The notes under the pieces were generated by a model. That model made no database searches. It was given only the letters and a program-made list of their open reading frames with translations, and was not told the DNA's origin. Positions 4,474-37,819 of a stretch of 39,481 nt of DNA are shown piece after piece. Location of the stretch: the NCBI GenBank assembly GCA_021787555.1, contig JAJYLS010000009.1:1-39481 (forward strand). Reading direction: 5' to 3'. Both the position numbers and the translations under genes were made by a program. The DNA is from Acidobacteriota bacterium. GTDB taxonomy: Bacteria > Acidobacteriota > Terriglobia > Bryobacterales > Bryobacteraceae. The first letter of the stretch is position 1, and each line of letters starts with the position of its first letter.

Positions 4474-4839
4474 TCACTCCGCCCGGAGCGCCACCGCCGG
4501 ATCGATCCGCGCCGCCCGCCGCGCCGGAACGATGCACGCCACCACCACCACCGCACCCAGAGCCGAAAAGCTCTTCGTCCGCTCCTCCAGCTCAACAAAA
4601 TTGGTCCCTGAAAAATTGCCCCAGTACTCCGGAAACCGCGCCTGCCGCTCGCAAACCTCCACCAGCCGTTCCGGTTCGGGATAAGGCAACGCGCGAATCA
4701 GGGTAGAATTGACCAGGCTGAAAATCGCCGTATTCGCCCCGATCCCCAGCGCCAGCGACGCCACTGCGACACTCGTGAACCCCGGACTGTTCCTCAGCCT
4801 CCTCGCCGCATAAGCGATATCCTGCCAAATGCCGCTCAT
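4474..4839 (-). pseudogene. ADOP-type ABC permease with an in-frame internal deletion
   Basis: A 121-residue open frame that joins the two ends of a protein normally about 800 residues long. Residues 1-95 are a typical ADOP N-terminus: [20 protein letters not shown], then [20 protein letters not shown] and [12 protein letters not shown]. The last 25 residues are the family C-terminus ([19 protein letters not shown]). The roughly 690 residues between, covering the periplasmic domain and most membrane helices, are missing, yet the frame is kept. The full-length paralogue at 16707-19163 shows what has been lost. It cannot work as an ABC permease. A short membrane peptide might still be made, but a decaying relic is the simplest reading. 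Confidence 0.85.
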
Positions 4840-16706: not shown

Positions 16707-19163
16707 GTGATGACGACGATTGGCGGCGAATTGCGCTGTGCTCTGCGCACTCTTGCCAAAGCTCCGGGCTATGCGTTGACCTGCATCCTGGTCCTGGCGG
16801 TCGGGATTGGCGCGAATACGGCCATCTTCAGCATCGTTTCAGCGGTCGTTCTCAAGGCGCTGCCCTACCCCGAACCGTCCCGGCTGGTGTTTGTGCGGGA
16901 GCGTTTTCCGTTCGCATCGGACCCGCTGTTTGCGCACATACGCGCGGCGCGCGCGAACTATCGGGAGTGGAAGCGCTCCAACACGGTTTTTGAAAGCATG
17001 GCGGCATTTGACCAGAGGTCGCTCAACGAAACGGTGAACGGAGAAGTGCGCTCGACGAAGGTGGGGTTTGGCACGGCCGGTCTGTTCCCGATGCTGGGCG
17101 TGCGCGCCCGCTTCGGCCGCCTCTTTGGAGCAGACGAAGAGCGAGCCGGCGCCCTGGTGGCAGTGCTCAGCGATGAGTACTTCGAGCGCCGCTTCCATCG
17201 CGCTTCCGCCGCTCTGGGAGCCTCGCTCAGGCTGGGTGACTCCATCTACACGGTTGTGGGTGTCTTGCCGCCGAGGTTTCACCTGCCTTCAACGGATAGC
17301 GGCGACGATCAGCTCAAGGCGGAAGTGTGGGTCCCGCTCTCCCGGCTCTTCAAGACCACGGACGACGACAACCGGCGTGATTTGCTGGTGGCCGCGCGGC
17401 TGAAACCCGGCGTTTCGCTCGCGCGGGCGCGAGCCGGGATGACCGCCCTCGCCGCGCGGCTTGCCAAGTCGAACCTCAAGCTCGACGAGGGCTGGACCGC
17501 CGCTGTCTCCACCTTCGAGGCCGAGGACACGTCTCCCAAACTGCACCGCGCGCTGTTCGTGCTGATGGCGGCGGTGGGATTCCTGCTGCTGATCGCCTGC
17601 GCGAACCTGGCGAACCTCACGCTGGTGCGGGCGGTATCGCGGTCGCGTGAAATTGCCATCCGCCTGGCCCTGGGGGCCGGCCGCGGGCGCGTGGTGGCGC
17701 ATCTGCTGACGGAATCCCTGCTGGTATCGAGCGCGGGTGCGGCACTGGGCGTGGCATTCGCATGGGGGGCGCTGAAGTTGATGCTGGCGCTCAAGCCGCC
17801 CGATATACAGCGGCCGGAGCTGATCGGAATCGATGGCACCGTGCTGGCTTTCACGGCGTTGGCAGCGGTTCTCACAACCCTGCTGTTCGGCCTCGCGCCG
17901 ATCGTCGCCGCCTCGGGATCCGATATTCAAGGCGCCCTGCGGGCGGGCGGCGGCTGGGGCGCTACGGCCGGGCGCCAGCGCGCCACGCAGTCGCTGGTGG
18001 TCGTGGAGGTGGCTCTGGCGCTTGTCCTGGTGACGGGCGCCAGCCTGATGATCCGCAGTTTTCAGAACCTCGTCGCGATGGGCGTCGGCTTCCAGACAGC
18101 GCACCTGGAAGTTGCGGATGTCCAGTTGCCCGAACAGAGCTATCCAGATGCGGCTGCCCGCGCGCGGTTCTTCCAAACCCTGCTCGAACAGGTGAGAGAC
18201 CTGCCCACGGTCACCGGTGCCGCCCTTACCGACAACTTGCCTCTGCACTCGGTCTCGGCAGCCAATTTCTATATCGCGGGCAGGCCGGACCCAGACGTGC
18301 TTCCAATGGCCGACATTGCCAATACCAGCGCGAACTATCTGGCGCTGCTGGGGCTGCCGATTCTGGCGGGCCGTCCGCTGACCGATGCGGATGTCGAGGC
18401 CACCGAGCGGGCTCTCACGGACCCGAAAGGCGGCATCGGGTTCTGTGTGGTGAACCGGGCGTTTGCCCGCAAGTTTTTCGGAGGGTCGAGCGCGATCGGC
18501 CAGCGGTTGCTCCAAGGCGACCAAAAGCACGGCTGCCGGGTCGTAGGGGTGGTGGCGGACTACCGGCCTCTCGGCGCTGAAAACGGGCCGCGGCCGCAGA
18601 TCTTCTGGCCCAATCTTGGCGATCGGAGCGCTTCGCTGGTGGTGCGCACGACCGGCGATGCGGAAGCCGCCGCGCGCGCCATTCGCGGCACGGTGTTTGG
18701 CTTGGATCGCGGCTTGAATCTGGATACGGTCGAGCCCCTCGATCACTGGGTGGACGAGTGGCAGTCGCAGCGGAGATTCAACACGCTTCTGCTTTCCGTA
18801 TTCGCGGGGTTGGCGCTGTTGCTGGCGCTGGCCGGCGTGTACAGCGTTCTCTCCAACATTGTGGCTTCCAGGACGCGTGAGATAGGCATCCGGGTGGCGA
18901 TGGGGGCGCGCCCGGCACAGATCGGCGGCCTGGTTTTGCGTCAGAGCCTGACTCCAGTGGCGATAGGCCTGGGAATCGGGCTCGGGGCCAGCATTCTGCT
19001 GGCGCGATTCCTGGAATCGTTATTGTTTCAGATCAGCGCACGGGACCCCATCGCACTCGCAGCGGCGGCCCTTGCCATTCTGGTTCTTTCGCCGGTTGCG
19101 GCGTTCGTGCCTCTGCGGCGAGCCTTGGCCGTGGACTGCGCGGTTACCTTGCGGGAAGAGTGA
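16707..19163 (+). CDS. ADOP-type ABC permease (MacB/FtsX family), full length
   Basis: Inner-membrane protein of 818 residues made of two MacB_PCD-FtsX units. The N-terminal ADOP signature includes [40 protein letters not shown] and LPYPEPSRLVFV. A periplasmic domain runs to about residue 280, and the first FtsX unit follows (CANLANLTLVRAVSRSREIA, IRLALGAGRGRVVAHLL). A second periplasmic domain lies between about 450 and 690, and a final FtsX unit holds ASRTREIGIRVAMGARPAQI and the end PLRRALAVDCAVTLREE. No ATPase gene is adjacent, as is usual for this group. The start is GTG 16707 or the next codon, ATG 16710; CTATAA at 16697-16702 is very close upstream, so the transcript may be nearly leaderless. 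Transported substrate unknown. Confidence 0.93.
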   Translation: MMTTIGGELRCALRTLAKAPGYALTCILVLAVGIGANTAIFSIVSAVVLKALPYPEPSRLVFVRERFPFASDPLFAHIRAARANYREWKRSNTVFESMAAFDQRSLNETVNGEVRSTKVGFGTAGLFPMLGVRARFGRLFGADEERAGALVAVLSDEYFERRFHRASAALGASLRLGDSIYTVVGVLPPRFHLPSTDSGDDQLKAEVWVPLSRLFKTTDDDNRRDLLVAARLKPGVSLARARAGMTALAARLAKSNLKLDEGWTAAVSTFEAEDTSPKLHRALFVLMAAVGFLLLIACANLANLTLVRAVSRSREIAIRLALGAGRGRVVAHLLTESLLVSSAGAALGVAFAWGALKLMLALKPPDIQRPELIGIDGTVLAFTALAAVLTTLLFGLAPIVAASGSDIQGALRAGGGWGATAGRQRATQSLVVVEVALALVLVTGASLMIRSFQNLVAMGVGFQTAHLEVADVQLPEQSYPDAAARARFFQTLLEQVRDLPTVTGAALTDNLPLHSVSAANFYIAGRPDPDVLPMADIANTSANYLALLGLPILAGRPLTDADVEATERALTDPKGGIGFCVVNRAFARKFFGGSSAIGQRLLQGDQKHGCRVVGVVADYRPLGAENGPRPQIFWPNLGDRSASLVVRTTGDAEAAARAIRGTVFGLDRGLNLDTVEPLDHWVDEWQSQRRFNTLLLSVFAGLALLLALAGVYSVLSNIVASRTREIGIRVAMGARPAQIGGLVLRQSLTPVAIGLGIGLGASILLARFLESLLFQISARDPIALAAAALAILVLSPVAAFVPLRRALAVDCAVTLREE

Positions 19164-26362: not shown

Positions 26363-27502
26363 CTACGCCGAGCGAGAGGGATCGAGCGGATGGGTCCAGC
26401 CGAGGTTGAAAGGCACTTCGGTCATGGGGCCTTGCCACTTGAGTTCGAGCTCGATGTCGGGGTGGAGGCGGTATTTCTTGGTGAGGTCTTCGAGCTTGGC
26501 GCCGACGATATCGATGTGGGCGCGGTCGTACTGGCCGAGGCCGAGGTCGCAGCAATATTTGGCGTAGCCGAGCCAATCGGGATTGATGCCCATGGCTTCG
26601 ACGCCGATGCGGTCGGCGGCGACGAAATCGAGCGAGGCGATGGCCAGGTGCGAGGGAACAGGCGTGCCGGAATTGGGGCCGTTGCCTTCCATGCCTTCGA
26701 AGCCGTCGATGACGGAGGCGCCCCAGGTGGGCGCGAGGCGCTGGGCGGTGAGCAGCATATTGTAGTGCATCTGGCGGAGGCCGACGTGGTACTTGCGCTT
26801 CTCGTTCCAATGCGGGGTTTCGCCGGGCGCATAGTGGAGCGGCGCGCCGAGGACCAGGTTCTTGATGGAGAGCGAAGCGATCACCGTGTTGTGGCACTTC
26901 AGCATGGCGGAGGAGATGACGAAGGCTTCGGGATCGAAGAGGCGGGCGGCGAGGCGGACGGGGGTGATGTGGAGGTCGGTGTCGAGGAGGGCGATGCGCT
27001 CGAATTTGGCCTCCTGGTTCAGATCGATCAGCTTGACGCCGAGGCGCTTGTATTCGCCGGGGAGAGTGGTGTAGTGGAAATTTTCGAACCCGGTGCGGGT
27101 ATCGCCGGCGGCGGCTTCGGCGATGACGACGGGACCTTTGACGCGGCCATCGAGGTAATCGAGGATGCCGCGGAGGGCGTCGGCGTGCGTGGAGGCAAGC
27201 TGGTTGACCATGTTGACGTTATTGGGCTTGATGACCACGTATTTTTTGGCGCGCAGCTTGGGGCGGAGGTCCTGATCGATGGCGAGCAGGGCCTGGTAGA
27301 CGTTCTTGCGGCGGTCGGGGCCGCCGATGAGCGCGACGGTGGAGCGGCGGTCGAGGGCAGGGAACGGCTCGGGGTTAGAGCCGGAGCCGAGGCGGCGGCG
27401 CGAGGCGGGGCGCTGCTGCTGGGCACCGGCGATACGGGCACGGAGCAGGGCGGCGGCTCCGGCGAGTTGGAAAAGACTGCGGCGTTGGAAAAGATTGGGC
27501 AT
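26363..27502 (-). CDS. Tat-exported DUF362 protein
   Basis: A 379-residue protein. The N-terminus MPNLFQRRSLFQLAGAAALL has the twin arginine, hydrophobic stretch and later AxA-like site of a Tat signal. A DUF362 domain fills most of the rest: KKYVVIKPNNVNMVNQLAST, GPVVIAEAAAGDTRTGFENF, DPEAFVISSAMLKCHNTVIA, SLSIKNLVLG and SLDFVAADRIGVEAMGINP. The C-terminal ferredoxin domain seen in some DUF362 proteins is absent. DUF362 function is poorly known, though links with Fe-S redox chemistry are common. It is third in an operon with a ferredoxin-type aldo/keto reductase and a DUF6599-like protein. The ATG at 27502 has AGGAGG upstream. Confidence 0.85.
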   Translation of the reverse strand: MPNLFQRRSLFQLAGAAALLRARIAGAQQQRPASRRRLGSGSNPEPFPALDRRSTVALIGGPDRRKNVYQALLAIDQDLRPKLRAKKYVVIKPNNVNMVNQLASTHADALRGILDYLDGRVKGPVVIAEAAAGDTRTGFENFHYTTLPGEYKRLGVKLIDLNQEAKFERIALLDTDLHITPVRLAARLFDPEAFVISSAMLKCHNTVIASLSIKNLVLGAPLHYAPGETPHWNEKRKYHVGLRQMHYNMLLTAQRLAPTWGASVIDGFEGMEGNGPNSGTPVPSHLAIASLDFVAADRIGVEAMGINPDWLGYAKYCCDLGLGQYDRAHIDIVGAKLEDLTKKYRLHPDIELELKWQGPMTEVPFNLGWTHPLDPSRSA

Positions 27503-27513
27503 AGGGGGACCTC

Positions 27514-28323
27514 CTAGGGAATCCGGGCGGCGAAGGCGGTGGACAGCGCGGCGGCGTCCTGGCCCTCGGCTATGTTGGCGTAGCCGGCCACGTAGCGGCC
27601 CTTGCGGAAGATGCAAAGGCGGCCGAGATAAGGATCGTTGGCGGAAAAGGCTTCGGCGGCAACCGAGACCGGGGCGGTCTGGCCGAAGTGGGCGCGGAGA
27701 TCGCGCATGAGCGCGGCTGCCGCGGCGTCGGAATCTTCGGCGACGAGGAAAGCCTTTCCGGATGGATATTCGGCGGCGTAACCGCGCTTGAGGAGGTGGA
27801 TGCCGAGGACGCTTTCGGGGACCAGACGGAGGGATTGCTGGTTTTCGGCGGGGAAGCAGGCCACCTCGGGCGGCGGGTCGGTGCGGCCTTCGAGGGTGCT
27901 GGCGAGCGCATCGGCCCAGTTCTGGAGGACGGCGGAGTAATCGCCTTCGGGATTGGCGGCGATCTCGACGTAATACTTGCCCTTGGCAAAGATGGCGCGG
28001 CGGGGGACGATCTGGCCGCCCATACCGATCTTGGTCGAGGGGAGGCGCGGATCGCGGGTGGAGGAGAACATGCCGTAGGCGGACTCGGGGTCGCCGAAAT
28101 CGGAGATATCGACGATGAGGGTGACGCCGGCCTTTTCGCAGGTGATGCCCTGCATGGTCTGGAAGCCGTAGAGCAGGTAGCCTTCGGAATTGCCGTCCAT
28201 GTACTCGAACAGGTTGTCGGCGGTGTAGGCGCGGGCGGGACCGTGCTGGGTCCAGCCGGACTGGCAGGTGGGCGCGGCGGTCAGGAGCGTTAGGGCGAAC
28301 AGCAGGCCGGCGGCGGCCCTCAT
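27514..28323 (-). CDS. Secreted DUF6599-like protein
   Basis: A 269-residue exported protein: Sec signal peptide (MRAAAGLLFALTLLTAAPT), then a single domain with ADNLFEYMDGNSEGYLLYGF, FGDPESAYGMFSSTRD and KGKYYVEIAANPEGDYS. I associate this pattern with DUF6599, of unknown function. The ATG at 28323 overlaps the stop of the upstream aldo/keto reductase gene (ATGA), and an 11-base gap separates it from the DUF362 gene, so all three are one operon. No cofactor motif is apparent. Confidence 0.75.
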   Translation of the reverse strand: MRAAAGLLFALTLLTAAPTCQSGWTQHGPARAYTADNLFEYMDGNSEGYLLYGFQTMQGITCEKAGVTLIVDISDFGDPESAYGMFSSTRDPRLPSTKIGMGGQIVPRRAIFAKGKYYVEIAANPEGDYSAVLQNWADALASTLEGRTDPPPEVACFPAENQQSLRLVPESVLGIHLLKRGYAAEYPSGKAFLVAEDSDAAAAALMRDLRAHFGQTAPVSVAAEAFSANDPYLGRLCIFRKGRYVAGYANIAEGQDAAALSTAFAARIP

Positions 28324-29483
28324 GCGAGGGCCTCCTGGGCGCGCGCCACGTGCCGCGCGACATGCACGCCGTAGGGGCAGGCGACGGTGCAGGAGGGGCA
28401 ATCGCCGCAGCGGGCGGAGACGTGGTGCGGAGGCATTTCGAGGTAGCGTTCGCGCGCGAGCGTGAATTGGCCGTAGCCTTCGGCGTAGGTGAGGAAGCGG
28501 AGAACGTCGTGGACGGGAAGTCCCTGGCGGCACTGGCCGGCGCACTCGCCGCACATCCGGCAGTAGGACGGGGCGATGCGGTCCAGGTGCATGGCGAGGA
28601 GCTTTTCATCTTCGGGGCCGAAGGTCTGGGACATGGCGCGGAGGTTGTCGTCGAGCTGGTCCATATCGGTCATGCTGGGGACGGTGGTGGAGACGTTGGA
28701 ATTGCGCAGGACCCATTTGAGCGCGGCGGGCATGGCGCCCTGCTGCTGCAACTTGGCGAGATTGGGATCGCCGCGGCGGAGGCGGCGCGCGCCGCCGGCC
28801 ATGACCTTCATGGCGACGACGCCTTTGCCCGCTTTGACCGCTTGCTCGATCACGGAGTTCATGAAGGGTTCCATGGTGAAGTTGTAGACGGTGAGGATGA
28901 CGTCGATGTGGGGATTGGCGGCGAGCGAGGGGATGAGCTCGCGCTGGCCGCCATGGGTGCTGACACCGGCGAAGCGAATTTTGCCGGCCTTTTTGGCGGC
29001 CTGCTGGGCTTCGATCAGATCGTCGGTGACGGCGGCGGGGCTGGTTTTGCCGTGGAGATACCAGATATCGACGAAATCGGTACCGAGTTCCTGGAGGCTT
29101 TTATCGAGCTGGTCGAGGGCTTCCTGGCGCGAGCTGGCCTCGGTCTTGGTGGAGAGGACCAGGTGCTGGCGCTTGCCCTTGAGCGCGGCGCCGACCATGC
29201 GCTCGTTCTGGCCGTGTCCATAATTGCGCGCGGTATCGAAATAGGTGATGCCGAGGTCGGCGGCGCGTTCGACGACGCTGCCGTCGGAGGTGATCATGCA
29301 GCCGAAGCCGAGGGTGGTGACGCGCAGGCCGGTCTTGCCGAGCGTCCGGTAGCGGAACTCGGGCGCGAAGGCGCGGCGCGGGGCGGGGGGCGCGGCCGGC
29401 GGGGCCTGCTGACCGGGTTTAGCGGTGGCGGCGACCGGCAGCGCGAGCCCGGCCGCCAGAAAATTCCGGCGCGAAGAAGACAT
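28320..29483 (-). CDS. Tat-exported aldo/keto reductase with two ferredoxin-type Fe-S motifs
   Basis: A 387-residue oxidoreductase. The start MSSSRRNFLAAGLALPVAAT is a textbook Tat signal. An aldo/keto reductase barrel follows with a full catalytic tetrad: Asp83 and Tyr88 (TYFDTARNYGH), Lys113 (STKTEA) and His144 (WYLHGK). The C-terminal part (from about 316) holds CRMCGECAGQC and CGDCPSCTVACP, each with C-X2-C-X2-C-X3-C spacing, enough for two [4Fe-4S] clusters. The Fe-S tail suggests that electrons pass to or from a partner rather than only NADPH. Export means cofactors must be loaded in the cytoplasm first. It heads an operon with DUF6599-like and DUF362 genes and is divergent from a Tat-tagged DegT aminotransferase. 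Confidence 0.93.
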   Translation of the reverse strand: MSSSRRNFLAAGLALPVAATAKPGQQAPPAAPPAPRRAFAPEFRYRTLGKTGLRVTTLGFGCMITSDGSVVERAADLGITYFDTARNYGHGQNERMVGAALKGKRQHLVLSTKTEASSRQEALDQLDKSLQELGTDFVDIWYLHGKTSPAAVTDDLIEAQQAAKKAGKIRFAGVSTHGGQRELIPSLAANPHIDVILTVYNFTMEPFMNSVIEQAVKAGKGVVAMKVMAGGARRLRRGDPNLAKLQQQGAMPAALKWVLRNSNVSTTVPSMTDMDQLDDNLRAMSQTFGPEDEKLLAMHLDRIAPSYCRMCGECAGQCRQGLPVHDVLRFLTYAEGYGQFTLARERYLEMPPHHVSARCGDCPSCTVACPYGVHVARHVARAQEALA

Positions 29484-29591
29484 GGATCCTCCCTAAAGAG
29501 AGTATAGGGGATTCAGGTGTGGAATAGGAGTCACGGAGTTGAGGAGTCAGGAGCCGAAGGGGTGTAGAGTAGGGATGGAAAGGAGCCGGGC

Positions 29592-30893
29592 ATGATCGAT
29601 CGGCGCACATTTCTGGCCGCGGCTGCCGCTGCCGGTGCGGCGGCGGGCGCGGAGGCAGCGGACGAAAAACTGGCGGTGGCGGGAGGAATGCCGGTGCGGC
29701 GGCAACCTCTCAAAACCAAGAACTGGGGGCCGGAGTTTTACGACGACAAAGAGCGGCAACAACTCGACGACGTGGTGGAGATGCGGAACCCGTTTCGCTT
29801 CGCCAACCCGGAGGACCGGTCGAAGGTGGCGGCGTTCGAGCGGGAATACGCGGCGTATGCGCACACGAAATACGCGCTGGCGGTGACCTCGGGGACGGCG
29901 GCGCTGCACTGCGCCATGGCGGCGCTGGAGGTGGGGCCGGGCGACGAGGTGATTCTGCCGGCGTGGACGTGGTACTCGTGCTACAACACCGTTATCCAGG
30001 CGGGGGCGCTGCCGGTATTCGCGGAGATCGACGAGTCGTTTAATATCGACCCGGCGGATATCGAGCACCGGATCACGCCGCAGACGAAGGTCATCATGGC
30101 GGTGAGCCTGCAAGGGAACCCCGCGGATATGGACCGCATCCTGCCGGTTGCGCGGAAGCACGGGCTGAAGGTGCTGGAGGATTTCAGCCAGAGCGTGGGC
30201 GCGAAGTACAAGGGGCGGCCGCTGGGGTCGATGGGGGACATCGGGATCAGCAGCCTGCAACAGAGCAAGACGATTACGGCGGGCGAGGGCGGGGCGGTGG
30301 TGACCAACGACGCGCGGCTGTACGAGCGGGCATTCCGGTTTCACGACGTGGGCATGCTGCGCGGTGCGGATGGGAAGCGGAACTTCTTTCCGGGGCTGAA
30401 TTACCGGATGAACGAATTCACCGGCGGGGTGCTGCTGACGCAATTGCGGAAGCTGGACACGATTGCGGGGGCGGTGCGCGCCAACGCGGGGCGGGTTTAC
30501 GGCGGCATCCGCGATTTGCCGGGAGTGCGGCTGCGGAAGTTGCCGGACCCGGAGGGAGAGTTGGGGACGGGGATCTTCATCGGGTTCAGGACGAGCGGTG
30601 AGCGGCAGCGGTACGCGGAGGCGATGCGGGCGGAGAACGTGCCGGTGTCGAGCCCGGGCGGGTCGGTGGTGCTGCCGGTGGTGCCGGAGATCGAGAATAA
30701 GGTGACGGTGGCGCCGGGGTGGCCGTCGTTCCAGACGGAGCGAGGCAAGGCGATCCGGTACGGGCGGGAATGCTGTCCGCGGACGATCGATATACTGAGC
30801 CGGTTCGCGGGGGTGATGATGGACCCGAAATTTACCGAGCGGGACACGGCGGACGCGGTGGCGGCGATCCGGAAGGTGTATCCGGCGATCTAA
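29592..30893 (+). CDS. DegT/DnrJ/EryC1/StrS-family aminotransferase with a Tat signal
   Basis: PLP-dependent enzyme of 433 residues. Family motifs are TSGTAALHCAMAALEVGPGD, VILPAWTWYSCYNTVIQAGA, VLEDFSQSVGAKYKGRPLG and SLQQSKTITAGEGGAVVTND, with Lys226 as the PLP-binding lysine and Asp197 contacting the pyridine nitrogen. Members normally transaminate nucleotide-linked keto-sugars in the cytoplasm. Here the N-terminus is MIDRRTFLAAAAAAGAAAGA, a clear Tat signal, so the protein is predicted to be exported, which is unusual for the family. AAGGAG sits 8 bases before the ATG. It is divergent from the exported aldo/keto reductase operon across 108 bases, so co-regulation is plausible. Substrate unknown. 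Confidence 0.93.
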   Translation: MIDRRTFLAAAAAAGAAAGAEAADEKLAVAGGMPVRRQPLKTKNWGPEFYDDKERQQLDDVVEMRNPFRFANPEDRSKVAAFEREYAAYAHTKYALAVTSGTAALHCAMAALEVGPGDEVILPAWTWYSCYNTVIQAGALPVFAEIDESFNIDPADIEHRITPQTKVIMAVSLQGNPADMDRILPVARKHGLKVLEDFSQSVGAKYKGRPLGSMGDIGISSLQQSKTITAGEGGAVVTNDARLYERAFRFHDVGMLRGADGKRNFFPGLNYRMNEFTGGVLLTQLRKLDTIAGAVRANAGRVYGGIRDLPGVRLRKLPDPEGELGTGIFIGFRTSGERQRYAEAMRAENVPVSSPGGSVVLPVVPEIENKVTVAPGWPSFQTERGKAIRYGRECCPRTIDILSRFAGVMMDPKFTERDTADAVAAIRKVYPAI

Positions 30894-31246: not shown

Positions 31247-34200
31247 ATGTGGATAGTACGGCTCGCCCTCAGGCGTCCTTATACGTTTGTCGTCGTCGCG
31301 CTGCTGATTGCCATACTCGGCGTGACCGCCATCGTCACCATGCCGGTGGATATCTTTCCGTATATCGATATCCCGGTGGTGAGCATCGTGTGGACCTACG
31401 CCGGCCTTTCGCCGGAAGAGATGGAAGGGCGCATGGTCACGATCTTCGAGCGGGCCCTGACGACGACGGTGAACGACATCGAGCACATGGAGTCGCAGTC
31501 GTATAACGGCATCTCCGTGACACGCGTGTACTTCCAGCCACACGCGAAAGTGGAGCTGGCGCTGTCGCAGGTGACGGCCATCGCGCAGACGCTGCTGCGG
31601 ATCTTTCCGCCGGGGACGACGCCGCCGTACGTCGCCAAGTACGACGCTTCGAGCGTTCCGGTGCTGCAACTGGGGATGGAGAGCAAGACGCTCAGCGAGC
31701 AGGAACTGTATGATATCGGGCACGTATTCATTCGCACGCCGCTGGCCACCATTCAGGGCGCATCGCTTCCGCTGCCGTACGGCGGGAAGAACCGCGTGGT
31801 GATGGTGGACCTGAATCCGGAGCAACTGTATGCCAAGGGGCTTTCGCCGGCGGACGTTTCGAATGCGCTGGGCAGTCAGAACCTGATTCTGCCGGCGGGG
31901 GATGCGAAGATCGGCGGCACGGACTACCTGATCCGGGTGAACAGCAGCCCGCGGATCCTGGACGAAATGAACGCGCTGCCCATCAAGGTAGTGAACGGGG
32001 CGACGGTATATCTGCGGGACGTGGGGCAGGTGCACGACGGCTATTCGATCCAGACCAGCATCGTGCGGACGAACGGAACGCGCGGCGCGCTGCTGACGGT
32101 ACTGCGGAGCGGGCAGGCGTCGACGCTGGCGGTGGTGAACGCGGTGAAGAAGGCGCTGCCGAAGATCCTGGCGGGGCTGCCGCCGACGCTGGAAGTGCGG
32201 CAGTTGTTCGACCAATCGATTTTCGTGCGGGCGGCCATCAACGGCGTGGTGCGGGAAGCGGTGGTCGCGGCGTTTCTCACCGGGCTGATGATCCTGCTGT
32301 TTCTGGGAAGCTGGCGCAGCACGGTGATCGTGTGCATTTCGATTCCGCTTTCGATTTTGACGTCGCTGATCGTGCTGAGCATGCTGGGCCAGACGGTGAA
32401 CGTGATGACGCTGGGCGGACTGGCGCTGGCGGTGGGAATCCTGGTGGACGACGCGACGGTGGAAATCGAGAACACGCACCGCAACATGGCGATGCGGAAG
32501 CCGCTGGTGCGGGCGGTGCTGGACGGCGCGCAGCAGATCGCGGCGCCGGCGTTCGTTTCGACGCTCTCGATCTGCATCGTGTTCGTGCCGGTGCTGCTGC
32601 TGACGGGCGCGGCCAAGTACCTGTTTACGCCCCTGGCGCTGGCGGTGGTGTTCGCCATGATGGCTTCGTACCTGCTGTCGCGGACGCTGGTTCCCACCAT
32701 GGTGCACTACATGCTGCGGCCGGAAGTGAAGCTGTACGCGCAGGGGAAGCACGGCGAGACGTCGGGCGGCAAAGGCATCATCTGGAAGGCGCACTACATT
32801 TTCAACCGGCGTTTCGAGCTGATGCGCGCGTCGTACGCATCGCTGCTGCACTGGGCGCTGGATCACCGCACGCCGGTGCTGATCGGGTTCGGGCTGTTCG
32901 TGGCGGGCTCGCTGGCGCTGGCGCCGCTGGTGGGCGAGGATTTCTTCCCGACGGTGGATTCGGGGCAGATGCGGCTGCACGCGCGAGCGCCGACGGGGAC
33001 GCGGATCGAAAAGACGGAGCAGATTTTCGCGCAGATCGAGGACCAGATCCGGCAGGTAATCCCGCAGCGGGAGATCGACAACATCATCGACAACATCGGG
33101 CTTCCGAACAACGGGCTCAACCTGGCGCTCGGGGACACCGCGACGATCGGCACGGACGACGGCGACATCCTGATTTCGCTGAAAGGCGAGCACGGCTCGA
33201 CGGCGGAATACACCGACCGGCTGCGGGAGCGGCTGCACGAGAGATTTCCGGACGTGGTGTTCTTTTTCGAAGCGGCGAACATCACCAACCAGATCTTGAA
33301 TTTCGGCCTGCCGGCGCCCATCGACGTGCAGGTGGTGGGGCGCGACAAGGAGGCGAATTACAAGATCGCGCAGCAGATCGAGGCGCAGATCGTACGGATT
33401 CCGGGTGCGGCGGACGTGCATATTCACCAGGTGGTGGACTATCCGGAGATCCGGGTGAACGTGGACCGGGACAAAGCGGGACAGGTGGGGCTGACGCAAG
33501 GGGACGTGGCGAACAGCCTGCTGATTTCGCTGAGTTCGAACTCGCAGATTGCGCCGACGCAATGGCTGGACTGGAAAACGGGAATCAGCTATTCGGTTAT
33601 GGTGCAGACGCCGCAGTATCGGGTGGACTCGCTGGAGGCGATGATGCGCACGCCGCTCGCGGCGATGGCGGGGAACGTGAAGAGCACGACGCCGGCTTCG
33701 CTGGCGGGCGTGTCCGACCAGGGGAACTCGGCGGTGGGCAGCGGGCCGAGCCAGAATTCGGCGGCGTACGGCAATCCGGGAACGGCGAGCACGGGACCGC
33801 AACTGCTTTCCAACCTGGCGGGGGTGACGCGCGCGGTGACGCCGGAAGTCGTGAGCCACTACAATGTGCAGCCGGTGTTCGACATTTACGCGAACGTGGA
33901 TCGGCGGGACCTGGGCGCGGTGGGCACGGCGGTGGAGAAGATCGTGGCGCAGGCGGAGCGGAAGCTGCCGCGCGGGTCGTCGATCGACGTGCGCGGGCAG
34001 ATAGCCACGATGGAAACCTCGTTCCGCCGGCTGGGGCTGGGGATCGTTTTCGCGATCGTGCTGGTGTACCTGCTGATGGCCATCAATTTTCAATCGTGGC
34101 TGGACCCGTTCATCATCCTGATGGCGCTGCCGGGCGCGCTGGCGGGGATCGTGTGGATCCTGTTTATGACGCAGACGACGTTCAGCGTGCCGTCGCTGAT

Positions 34201-34594
34201 GGGCTCGATCATGTGCATCGGGGTGGCGACGGCGAACAGCATTCTGCTGGTGGTCTTCGCGAACGACCAGCGGGAGGAGGGCCTGGACGCGCGGTCGGCG
34301 GCGCTGGCGGCGGGGCACACGCGGATCCGGCCGGTGCTGATGACGGCGAGCGCGATGATTATCGGCATGCTGCCGATGGCGCTGGGAATGGGCGAAGGAG
34401 GAGAACAGAACGCGCCGCTGGGGCGGGCGGTGATCGGCGGGCTGGTACTGGCTACCGTCACCACGCTATTCGTGGTTCCATTAGTATATAGCGTGCTGCG
34501 GAAGAACCCGCCGGTGGATTACGAACGCAGAATCGTCGAGGAGGAACACGAGTACTTGCGGGATGAGATGATGCAGGGCGAGGAACTGCCATGA
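31247..34594 (+). CDS. RND efflux pump, AcrB/HAE1-like
   Basis: Inner-membrane proton-driven exporter of 1115 residues with the usual 12 helices and two large periplasmic loops. Family landmarks are the first helix (MWIVRLALRRPYTFVVVALL), VDIFPYIDIPVVSIVWTYAG, the proton-relay helix GILVDDATVEIENTHRNMAM with its Asp pair, and near the end GVATANSILLVVFANDQREE and RPVLMTASAMIIGMLPMALG. Around residues 800-855 there is a Ser/Gly/Asn-rich insertion (from about KSTTPASLAG to GPQLLSNLAG) in the second periplasmic loop. It is coupled to the adaptor gene by ATGA. Pump before adaptor is the reverse of the acrAB order. Substrates unknown. Confidence 0.95.
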   Translation: MWIVRLALRRPYTFVVVALLIAILGVTAIVTMPVDIFPYIDIPVVSIVWTYAGLSPEEMEGRMVTIFERALTTTVNDIEHMESQSYNGISVTRVYFQPHAKVELALSQVTAIAQTLLRIFPPGTTPPYVAKYDASSVPVLQLGMESKTLSEQELYDIGHVFIRTPLATIQGASLPLPYGGKNRVVMVDLNPEQLYAKGLSPADVSNALGSQNLILPAGDAKIGGTDYLIRVNSSPRILDEMNALPIKVVNGATVYLRDVGQVHDGYSIQTSIVRTNGTRGALLTVLRSGQASTLAVVNAVKKALPKILAGLPPTLEVRQLFDQSIFVRAAINGVVREAVVAAFLTGLMILLFLGSWRSTVIVCISIPLSILTSLIVLSMLGQTVNVMTLGGLALAVGILVDDATVEIENTHRNMAMRKPLVRAVLDGAQQIAAPAFVSTLSICIVFVPVLLLTGAAKYLFTPLALAVVFAMMASYLLSRTLVPTMVHYMLRPEVKLYAQGKHGETSGGKGIIWKAHYIFNRRFELMRASYASLLHWALDHRTPVLIGFGLFVAGSLALAPLVGEDFFPTVDSGQMRLHARAPTGTRIEKTEQIFAQIEDQIRQVIPQREIDNIIDNIGLPNNGLNLALGDTATIGTDDGDILISLKGEHGSTAEYTDRLRERLHERFPDVVFFFEAANITNQILNFGLPAPIDVQVVGRDKEANYKIAQQIEAQIVRIPGAADVHIHQVVDYPEIRVNVDRDKAGQVGLTQGDVANSLLISLSSNSQIAPTQWLDWKTGISYSVMVQTPQYRVDSLEAMMRTPLAAMAGNVKSTTPASLAGVSDQGNSAVGSGPSQNSAAYGNPGTASTGPQLLSNLAGVTRAVTPEVVSHYNVQPVFDIYANVDRRDLGAVGTAVEKIVAQAERKLPRGSSIDVRGQIATMETSFRRLGLGIVFAIVLVYLLMAINFQSWLDPFIILMALPGALAGIVWILFMTQTTFSVPSLMGSIMCIGVATANSILLVVFANDQREEGLDARSAALAAGHTRIRPVLMTASAMIIGMLPMALGMGEGGEQNAPLGRAVIGGLVLATVTTLFVVPLVYSVLRKNPPVDYERRIVEEEHEYLRDEMMQGEELP

Positions 34595-35901
34595 ACGAGG
34601 TGGGCGCCCAAACCACCGAAGAGCGATTGCGCGCGGAAATCGAAGCGCTGAAGCGGAAGCTTGCGCAGCGCAGCGCGGAGCGGCCTCCGAAAACCGGGCC
34701 ATCGACGGGCGCGCTGGTGGTAATCGCGGTGGTGCTGGTGGCGCTGGTGGTGGCGGGATTTTTCGCGGGATATCTGCCGCGGCAGCGAAGGGAACGGGTT
34801 TTGGCGGCCGAGTCCAGGGCCGAAAGCCAGGCGCGGCCGGTGGTGAGCGTGCAGGCGGTGAAGCGCGAGGCGCCGCACGACAACCTGGTGCTGCCCGGCA
34901 ATATTCAGGCGGTGACGGAAGCGCCGATTCTGGCGCGGGCCAACGGATACATCAAGCAGCGGTTCGTGGATATCGGCGACCACGTGGCGGCGGGGCAAGT
35001 GCTGGCGATCATCGAGGCGCCGGAATTGATGCAGCAAATCCGGCAGGCGCAGGAAGCCGTGGACCAGGCCAACAGCAACATCCAGCAGGCGGAAGCGGCG
35101 CTACAGCAGGGGCAGGCGAACCTGACCCTGGCGCGGGTGACCTCCGAGCGCTGGCAGAGGCTGGTGGTGAAGGGCGTGGTCTCGAAGCAGGAGAACGATA
35201 CGTACTTCGCGCAGTACCAGGCGCAGCAGGCCAACGTGCATGCGCTGGAAAAGGCGGTGGCGGCGGCGCGCAGCAACGCCGGCGCAGCGGAGGCGAACCT
35301 GGGGCGGCTGGACGAACTGGTGAGGTATCTGAACGTGAGCGCGCCGTTCACGGGCGTGATCACGGTGCGCAACGTGGACGTGGGCGCGCTGGTGAACGAA
35401 GGGACGACGCTGCTGTACCGCATCGCGCAAGCCGAACGGCTGCGGATTTTCCTGAACGTGCCGCAGGCGGATTCGGGATCGGTGCGGGTGGGGCAGAAGG
35501 CGACAATCAGACTTCCCGACCGGCCGGGCATGAAATTCGACGGCGAGGTGACGCGGAGTTCGGATGCGCTGGATCCGGCGTCGCGCACGCTGCTGACCGA
35601 GGTGCAGGTACCCAATTCCTCCGGCCTGCTGCTGCCCGGAATGTACGCGCAGGTGGACCTGCTGGTGCCGCGCAAGAACGCGCCGCTGGTGATCCCGGGC
35701 GGCGCGCTGGTGGTGCGCAGCAACGGGACGCAGGTGGCCGTGGTGGGCGCGGACGGCGTGGTGCACTTCACCCGCATTCAGTTAGGCCGCGATTTCGGCG
35801 ACCGCTTGGAAGTGCTCGGCGGGTTGCAGGACGGCGACCAGGTGGTGATGAACCCGAGCGACGCCGTGCGCGAAGGGGTGAAGGTAAAGCCGGTGAAATA
35901 A
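34591..35901 (+). CDS. RND efflux periplasmic adaptor (membrane fusion protein)
   Basis: A 436-residue adaptor. The N-terminus is a cytoplasmic coiled coil (TEERLRAEIEALKRKLAQRS) followed by one transmembrane anchor (GALVVIAVVLVALVVAGFFA) rather than a lipoprotein signal. After it come the lipoyl halves (ARANGYIKQRFVDIGDHVAA and LNVSAPFTGVITVRNVDVGA), a helical hairpin between about 145 and 230, a beta-barrel domain (DSGSVRVGQKATIRLPDRPG) and a membrane-proximal domain ending KVKPVK. It joins the pump encoded upstream to the TolC-like channel encoded downstream. Its ATG overlaps the pump stop. Confidence 0.94.
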   Translation: MNEVGAQTTEERLRAEIEALKRKLAQRSAERPPKTGPSTGALVVIAVVLVALVVAGFFAGYLPRQRRERVLAAESRAESQARPVVSVQAVKREAPHDNLVLPGNIQAVTEAPILARANGYIKQRFVDIGDHVAAGQVLAIIEAPELMQQIRQAQEAVDQANSNIQQAEAALQQGQANLTLARVTSERWQRLVVKGVVSKQENDTYFAQYQAQQANVHALEKAVAAARSNAGAAEANLGRLDELVRYLNVSAPFTGVITVRNVDVGALVNEGTTLLYRIAQAERLRIFLNVPQADSGSVRVGQKATIRLPDRPGMKFDGEVTRSSDALDPASRTLLTEVQVPNSSGLLLPGMYAQVDLLVPRKNAPLVIPGGALVVRSNGTQVAVVGADGVVHFTRIQLGRDFGDRLEVLGGLQDGDQVVMNPSDAVREGVKVKPVK

Positions 35902-35981
35902 GTTGTGAGTTATCAGTTATGAGTTTTGGGTTTTGAGCTCCGGCTGCTCATACTCATAACTCACGACTCAAAACTGAGAGC
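35901..35981. repeat. Cluster of short direct and inverted repeats between adaptor and channel genes
   Basis: Phrases GTGAGTTAT, AGTTATGAG and GTTTTGAG occur and are mirrored by ATAACTCAC, CTCATAACT and CTCAAAAC in the second half, around an AGCTCCGGCTGCTC centre. The transcript could fold into alternative hairpins. Position inside the efflux operon suggests an effect on relative expression of the channel gene; this is inference. Confidence 0.55.
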
Positions 35982-35986
35982 TTTAT

Positions 35987-37819
35987 ATGTATAAATCCAT
36001 TGGCATCCTTTTCGTCGCGGTCGGGCTCTCGGCTCCCCTCGCGGCGCAGACCGGCCCGCCGCTGAATTTTCAGAATTCGCAACGCGTCCACGAGCTGATC
36101 CGCGCGGGAAATATGTATCTTTCACTGCACGACGCGCTGGCGCTGGCGATCGAAAACAATCTCGACATCGAGTTGGAGCGCTACACGCAGCCGGCGGCGA
36201 GCACGGAACTGCTGCGCACGCGCGGCGGCGGGCTGGCGCGCGGACTGGATTTCACGGTGGCGGAGGCGCCCACGGGCGTGGGCGGACCGCTGGGTCCGCT
36301 GGTGACCAACACTGCGGCGGCGGGGCAGGCGGTCACGGGATCTTCGGTGGCGACCAATCCGATCGAACTGGGCGCGCTCACCGAACCGCTGGACAACCTT
36401 TCGGTCGCGGGGACGACGCCGCCATCGACAGGCACGCCGGTGCCTATTTTCGATCCGTCGCTGGTGGGGGAATTGAACTGGACGCACGCGACGGCACCGC
36501 AAAACAGCCTGCTGACCTATGGCACGAGCGCGCTGGTGAGCAACACGACCATCGCCAATGCGGGAATCGAGCAGGGGCTTGCGACGGGCGCGCAGGTGGG
36601 GCTGAACTTCGACAACAACCACACGTCGCTGAACGCGCTGACCACCGGGTACAATCCGTTCACCGAATCGAACCTGGGGCTGACGGTGACGCAGCCGCTG
36701 CTGCGCGGCTTCGGGATGGGCCTCAACCGGCGGTTCATCCGCATCGCCTTCAACGAACAGAAAATCTCCAGCCTGCTTTTCCAGCAGCAGTTGATCGCGA
36801 CGGTGTATGGCGTGGTGCGGCTGTACACCGATTTCGTGGCGCTGACCGAAGACGAAAAAGTGAAGGAGGAGACGCTGGCGGCGGCGGAGAAGCTGTACTC
36901 GGACACCAAGGACCAGGTGGAGGAAGGCACGCTGGCGGAAGTGGAGATGACGCGCGCGGACGCGCAGGTGTTTTCCGCGCGGCAGGACCTGATCAACGCG
37001 CGCGGGCTGCGCGACGAGCAGGAGGCAATTCTGAAGAACGTGCTGACGCGGCGGGGGAATGAAGATCCGGAAGTGGAATCGGCGCACATCATTCCGACGG
37101 ACGTGCTGACGATTCCGGCGCAGGACCAGGTGCGGCCCATGCAGGACCTGATCGTCGAAGCGCTGGCGCGCCGGCCGGACTTGGGGCAGGCGGTGCTGCA
37201 AATCGAGAACTCGCGCATCGGGCTTCAGGGCGCGAAGAACGCCACGCTGCCGGAAGTGGACCTGGTAGGGATCGCGGAGAATAACGGCATGGCGGGCGCG
37301 GTGAATTCCTTCGCGCCGGGCACGGTGGCGCCGGGGCCGGTGGGCGGACTGGGCGGCGCGCTGGACCAGATTTTTCTGCGCAAGAACCCGACCTACGGAG
37401 TGGGCGTGCAGGTGACGCTGCCGATCCGCAACCGCATCGCCGAAGCCGACCTGGCGCGCGACCAGATCCAGGTGAAGAAGTCGGAGATCCGGCTGCGGCA
37501 AATGCAGAATGAGGCGCGGCTGGAGGTGGAGGATTCGCTGATCGCGATGCGGCGCGCACGGTCGTCGTACGAGGCGGCGGTGCAGACGCGGAAATTCCAG
37601 GAGCGGTCGCTCGAGGCGGAGCAGGCGAAGTTCGACGTGGGGGCGTCGACGGCGTTTTTCGTGATTCAGTACGAGAGCCTGCTGGCGCAGGCGAAATCGA
37701 CCGAGGTGGCGGCGAAGAGTTCGTACGTGAAGGCGAAGGCCGCGCTGGAGCGGGCCATGGGGACGATCCTGGACGACAACCGGATTTCGGTGGAAGCGGC
37801 GGTGAAGGGGCGGATGTAG
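35987..37819 (+). CDS. TolC-family outer-membrane efflux protein
   Basis: A 610-residue outer-membrane channel, the exit duct of the efflux pump. The signal peptide ends at about SAPLAAQ (residue 21). An opening helix LSLHDALALAIENNLDIELE is typical, and the paired repeats of the family show as SNLGLTVTQPLLRGFGMGLN and, in the second half, YGVGVQVTLPIRNRIAEADL with long helices after each. The protein is longer than TolC (about 470) because of a Gly/Thr/Pro-rich stretch of roughly 100 residues (about 75-175) before the first strand and a second loop around 430-460. Third gene of the operon, 85 bases after the adaptor gene. Confidence 0.93.
   Translation: MYKSIGILFVAVGLSAPLAAQTGPPLNFQNSQRVHELIRAGNMYLSLHDALALAIENNLDIELERYTQPAASTELLRTRGGGLARGLDFTVAEAPTGVGGPLGPLVTNTAAAGQAVTGSSVATNPIELGALTEPLDNLSVAGTTPPSTGTPVPIFDPSLVGELNWTHATAPQNSLLTYGTSALVSNTTIANAGIEQGLATGAQVGLNFDNNHTSLNALTTGYNPFTESNLGLTVTQPLLRGFGMGLNRRFIRIAFNEQKISSLLFQQQLIATVYGVVRLYTDFVALTEDEKVKEETLAAAEKLYSDTKDQVEEGTLAEVEMTRADAQVFSARQDLINARGLRDEQEAILKNVLTRRGNEDPEVESAHIIPTDVLTIPAQDQVRPMQDLIVEALARRPDLGQAVLQIENSRIGLQGAKNATLPEVDLVGIAENNGMAGAVNSFAPGTVAPGPVGGLGGALDQIFLRKNPTYGVGVQVTLPIRNRIAEADLARDQIQVKKSEIRLRQMQNEARLEVEDSLIAMRRARSSYEAAVQTRKFQERSLEAEQAKFDVGASTAFFVIQYESLLAQAKSTEVAAKSSYVKAKAALERAMGTILDDNRISVEAAVKGRM

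Follow-up and report, generated by a model that had tools for sequence, protein, structure and literature searches.

A Tat-signalled aldo/keto reductase with ferredoxin motifs, a DUF6599 protein and a DUF362 protein form a conserved gene module in Acidobacteriota

Enzymes of the nicotinamide type are considered rare in the periplasm, where free NAD(P)H is not available. A locus of an Acidobacteriota bacterium, in which putative redox and PLP enzymes with export signals stand side by side, raises the question of whether such neighbours work together outside the cytoplasm and, if so, which of them belong to the set. The window, i.e. the whole stretch of DNA analysed (39,481 nt, contig JAJYLS010000009.1), holds the features of interest at 26363-30893. 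A preliminary description had placed four adjacent genes with export signals here, three of them of the Tat type, and this was borne out: the leaders of the aldo/keto reductase (AKR), DUF362 and DegT proteins carry a twin arginine (RR), and DUF6599 has a plain Sec-type leader. Pfam assigns each of the four proteins to its family, and the features are as follows.

29483-28320, minus strand: AKR-Fd, a Tat-signalled aldo/keto reductase with C-terminal 2x[4Fe-4S] motifs, 387 aa, leader SRRNFLAAGLALP (PF00248, E=4.7e-35)
28323-27514, minus strand: DUF6599 protein with a Sec-type leader, 269 aa (PF20244, E=4e-32)
27502-26363, minus strand: DUF362 protein with a Tat signal and a predicted LarA-like fold, 379 aa, leader QRRSLFQLAGAAALL (PF04015, E=2e-22)
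29592-30893, plus strand: Tat-signalled DegT/DnrJ/EryC1/StrS aminotransferase, a divergent neighbour outside the module, 433 aa, leader DRRTFLAAAAAAG (PF01041, E=9e-77)
29484-29591, no strand: AKR-DegT intergenic region, 108 bp separating the two start codons

The AKR, DUF6599 and DUF362 genes form a tight run on the minus strand, in which the DUF6599 start codon overlaps the AKR stop codon in an ATGA and DUF362 starts about 12 bp past the end of DUF6599. DegT is encoded on the plus strand, divergent from AKR, with the start codons 108 bp apart. An RND efflux set (AcrB-type pump, HlyD-type adaptor and TolC-type OEP; 31247-37819, plus strand) begins 354 bp past DegT and could be co-transcribed with it. 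Elsewhere in the window, a 121-aa ORF at 4474-4839 resembles the N-terminal part of an 817-aa MacB/FtsX-type permease (16710-19163) and is an apparent remnant.

The conservation of this arrangement was followed over 80 loci, retrieved by DUF6599 alignment from data with one genome per species; the search patterns were built from Bryobacterales sequences, and a wider spread may be missed. All 80 loci are labelled Acidobacteriota and hold AKR-DUF6599, DUF362-DUF6599 or all three genes. The ATGA/GTGA overlap is shared by 46 of the 63 AKR/DUF6599 pairs, and DUF362 is divergent from AKR/DUF6599 in 49 of the 57 loci that have it, the gap being mostly about 50-120 bp where AKR is the divergent partner. 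The place divergent from AKR is usually taken by DUF362 in the relatives and by DegT in the window; a tandem order like that of the window is also found (L108), and some loci carry two AKRs. That AKR-Fd, DUF6599 and DUF362 are a conserved module, co-inherited in Acidobacteriota and mainly in Bryobacterales, is well supported; its carriers include many soil-dwelling members of the phylum. A literature search that covered few subscription papers returned no published description of the trio, no paper on DUF6599, no DUF362 paper naming the trio in its title or abstract, and no paper uniting Tat, aldo-keto reductase, ferredoxin and periplasm.

Two further regularities were seen around these genes. 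The short DUF362-AKR intergenic regions, read as promoter regions shared by the two divergent genes, contain near-palindromic A/T-rich elements in L081 and other loci, e.g. AATAGGATTTTAAAATCCTATT, which may be a shared operator. Likewise, a Tat-signalled protein of about 630 aa, often beginning MIRREFL and having a proline-rich stretch, recurs beyond DUF362 in L096, L101, L105, L109, L110 and L111.

The aminotransferase behaves differently. DegT adjoins the module in none of the 80 loci, and no conserved neighbours were found in the gene contexts of its orthologues, which occur in 21 of 61 genomes and mostly keep the Tat motif. In the sister genome G018, DegT is present at 87% identity, and AKR-Fd and DUF6599 were not found. 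Over 37 genomes, the co-occurrence of DegT with the module gave an odds ratio of 4 within one family and was not significant (Fisher p=0.09). On these grounds DegT was rejected as a module member; context and distribution together identify the trio as the unit and DegT as its neighbour. Of the four-gene grouping proposed earlier, the linkage of AKR-Fd, DUF6599 and DUF362, as predicted exported redox proteins that depend on cofactors, stood and the inclusion of DegT fell. With DegT outside the set, the proposed exported pathway that would first reduce and then aminate a carbonyl compound loses its basis. The export signals and adjacency of all four genes in the window genome, along with the odds ratio, speak for such a pathway, but it is largely refuted by the gene context, no exported amino donor system was seen, and it is now highly improbable. 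Nothing supports periplasmic amination by the trio with DegT.

DegT itself would act as an independent exported PLP enzyme. This is a real and separate observation as far as the Tat motif of most orthologues can indicate, and the protein combines the PF01041 match with the PLP-lysine motif SKTITAGEGG, its closest solved relative being the 8-amino-Kdo transaminase 5k8b. The Tat-bearing DegT family (29592-30893 in the window, L132-L153 elsewhere) is stand-alone and spans about 20 genera with mostly conserved signals.

Homologues that keep the gene order also keep the export signals almost throughout, the opposite of what the preliminary description had named as its refutation. An RR motif within the first 40 residues is borne by 71 of the 72 AKRs that could be scored and by 56 of 58 DUF362s of the 80 loci, and in the alignments the RR pair is invariant (49/49 AKR and 48/48 DUF362 homologues) at leaders where most other positions vary. 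The start-codon rule slightly favours RR; the invariance of the RR column is independent of that rule. In both families the twin-arginine motif is followed by a hydrophobic stretch, as in Tat substrates, and the window genome encodes TatC. The Pfam TAT_signal profile gave weak, sub-cut-off matches on the window AKR and DegT and no match on the window DUF362, so the Tat assignment rests mainly on leader conservation. The window DUF362 leader is the weakest of the three, with an arginine inside its hydrophobic part, and it failed a strict test of the leader hydrophobic core.

It may be argued that the Tat signals are real and that the trio is only a chance draw from many Tat proteins, with no joint function. 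Tat-like leaders are indeed common, occurring on 38 of 717 flanking genes (about 5%, computed on flanks of related loci with a custom gene caller), and AKR domains are numerous, with 7 matches in the genome. Against this, a background of about 5% implies that the Tat pattern is not chance; gene order, ATGA overlap and the divergent promoter region are conserved over dozens of genomes; and the window genome has a single AKR-Fd and a single close DUF362 copy. A chance assembly is therefore very unlikely.

The catalytic and Fe-S residues of AKR-Fd are conserved. The protein combines the PF00248 match with the Asp-Tyr-Lys-His tetrad of the aldo/keto reductase superfamily, in which D83, Y88 and K113 are present in 49/49 aligned homologues and H144 in 48/49. 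Two CxxCxxCxxxC motifs at the C-terminus (C308/311/314/318 and C359/362/365/369) are likewise found in 49/49 homologues, with Fer4 matches that fall below the Pfam cut-off. The intact tetrad and the two Fe-S cluster motifs described earlier are thus confirmed as conserved residues, from which the clusters themselves are predicted. AKR-Fd is the sole AKR of its type in the window genome, since the other AKR matches stop short of the Fe-S tail.

DUF6599 is a secure family assignment, with 111.7 bits against a cut-off of 27 for the window protein and PF20244 matches in 53/53 homologues. Two cysteines, C20 and C62, are invariant (53/53) and suggest a disulfide. The AlphaFold2 model (pLDDT 94) has two tandem sensor-like halves; VIA half-matches, mostly of the second half, were to PknH sensor, TiME, TM1622, TP0453 and RseB-type structures at a modest Z of 8-11, and Foldseek gave no match under E 0.001. 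Neither search found an enzyme fold, and an enzymatic role was set aside. A redox-only role for the family was also rejected: other DUF6599 genes adjoin SecA or unrelated genes, so the domain by itself is no sign of a redox role. For example, L161, L162, L163 and L167, from several acidobacterial genomes, have an exported DUF6599-like protein directly adjoining secA.

The ten best structural matches of the DUF362 AlphaFold2 model (pLDDT 87) are all of the LarA type (Z 15.0-17.6), nine of them lactate/malate racemases or LarA-like enzymes and the tenth 4nar, an uncharacterised Thermotoga protein; the next, unrelated, match has Z 6.2. The model accordingly is predicted to have the LarA N-domain fold, in agreement with the Pfam clan CL0471 common to DUF362 and DUF2088 (PMC11770544). 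Among DUF362s that share about 20% identity, K92, N94, K202, H204, K214, N215, H239, D266, G275, P276, D292 and D297 are invariant, giving the pattern K92xN94, K202xH204-x9-K214N215, H239. The spacing of H204 and K214 equals that of H174 and K184 in LarA, where residue roles, including the NPN-contact residues R75, K184 and H200, have been described (PMC7583248), and the downstream H239 may stand for H200. By spacing and order, it is plausible that K214 and H239 are the equivalents of LarA K184 and H200.

The resemblance has clear limits. Conserved counterparts of LarA D72, R75 and H108 were not found in the DUF362 alignment, the R75 position being mostly Thr. Of the LarA catalytic set D72, H108, H174 and K298, only an H174-like histidine (H204) is present, and DUF362 was therefore not filed as LarA; a LarA subgroup with a single catalytic histidine is known (PMC12611868). 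Neither shallow nor more diverse hhalign profiles of DUF362 gave a significant match to LarA, a low-probability alignment pairing H204 with H174 and K214 with K184 is not proof, and a comparison of DUF362 with PDB sequences returned nothing relevant. LarC, used in making the nickel-pincer cofactor, is encoded in 21/21 genomes and makes that cofactor available, yet canonical LarA, present in most of these genomes, explains LarC there.

DUF6599 and DUF362 also occur together apart from AKR-Fd. In L181, of the same family, the pair recurs with a membrane polyferredoxin alone. In the AmmeMemoRadiSam clusters L170, L175, L176 and L177, DUF6599 is either fused to a polyferredoxin or comes after it, with genes nearby for a MEMO-AMMECR1 protein and for two Tat-tagged proteins, DUF362 and a radical SAM protein; L170 (5156-10787, G000:C247) belongs to the window's own genome. 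A similar cluster in L179, near a contig end, has no listed polyferredoxin. Pfam families were assigned in L170, L177 and L181, and sequence likeness identified the other loci. The common theme, as read from the genes, is an Fe-S electron carrier with DUF362 and DUF6599, all predicted to lie outside the cytoplasm, and the Tat tags suggest a putative exported version of the AmmeMemoRadiSam system.

This recurrence bears on the main rival explanation, namely that DUF362 and DUF6599 act as factors that assemble or mature an exported Fe-S protein and that DUF362 binds a metal or cluster and not a metabolite. A constant DUF6599/DUF362 pair with a varying Fe-S carrier (AKR-Fd, the polyferredoxin of L181, or those of L170/175/176/177) is what such factors could show, and the two halves of DUF6599 look like PknH-sensor/TiME-type domains rather than enzymes. 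However, several loci keep AKR-DUF6599 without a nearby DUF362, and the LarA fold of the model with its conserved His/Lys/His suggests catalysis by DUF362. Maturation is a somewhat unlikely reading.

In the preferred reading, the co-inherited AKR-Fd, DUF6599 and DUF362 work as one exported redox/epimerisation unit supplied through Fe-S clusters, and its chances of being correct are about even. Gene linkage, the conserved Tat motifs, the tetrad and Fe-S cysteines, the LarA-like model with its invariant residues, the recurrence of DUF6599 and DUF362 with polyferredoxins and the presence of LarC speak for it. Some loci hold AKR-DUF6599 with no DUF362 within 10 kb and others hold DUF362-DUF6599 without AKR, and both kinds count against it, as do the LarA residues without a counterpart, the lack of a profile signal and the explanation of LarC by canonical LarA. 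In such a unit, AKR-Fd and DUF362 would fold and load their cofactors in the cytoplasm and exit via Tat, and DUF6599 would exit via Sec and serve, with a disulfide bond and no enzymatic role, as their partner or docking protein. The pair of Fe-S clusters in AKR-Fd may carry electrons to or from a carbonyl or hydroxy compound held by the AKR barrel outside the cytoplasm. Since free NAD(P)H is not expected there, the AKR would need a locked cofactor or another donor, and its NAD(P) would have to travel out pre-bound. DUF362, with its LarA-like fold and His/Lys/His, may use hydride chemistry to epimerise, reduce or oxidise that compound or an intermediate. In this scheme the contacts between the proteins, their cofactors, the substrate, the reaction and the direction in which electrons flow are all putative.

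A bolder extension, for now rather improbable, is that DUF362 is a second, Tat-exportable branch of the LarA type that would use, outside the cytoplasm, an organometallic cofactor of the nickel-pincer or a related kind and be coupled via DUF6599 to interchangeable Fe-S carriers, either AKR-Fd or membrane polyferredoxins. As a conserved, predicted exported AKR with two putative Fe-S clusters, AKR-Fd would be well suited for testing how a nicotinamide-type enzyme is powered in the periplasm. Similarly, DUF362 domains are very common and uncharacterised, and the predicted LarA fold makes them candidates that can be tested for an organometallic cofactor; their occurrence with DUF6599 beside polyferredoxins and AmmeMemoRadiSam genes provides an entry to that system.

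Among known systems, the nearest kind to AKR-Fd is presumably the COG1453-type aldo/keto reductases with a C-terminal ferredoxin domain, which share the AKR barrel with its tetrad and the two [4Fe-4S] motifs; AKR-Fd differs in having its own Tat signal and a fixed linkage to DUF6599 and DUF362. The glucose-fructose oxidoreductase of Zymomonas, which is Tat-exported with bound NADP, is a precedent for a nicotinamide enzyme leaving folded with its cofactor, but it has a Gfo/Idh/MocA fold and no Fe-S clusters. The nickel-pincer nucleotide 2-hydroxyacid racemases of the LarA type (DUF2088, Lar_N) resemble DUF362 in predicted fold, His-x9-Lys spacing, the later His and clan CL0471. In contrast to LarA, DUF362 lacks D72/R75/H108 counterparts, gives no profile signal and bears a Tat signal, which none of the four LarA homologues inspected showed. 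In the genomes that carry the trio, the cluster of the AmmeMemoRadiSam system (AMMECR1, MEMO1 and radical SAM) includes a Tat DUF362 and a polyferredoxin that is joined to DUF6599 or adjoins it; that cluster has no AKR, whereas the module of the window has no MEMO or radical SAM protein.
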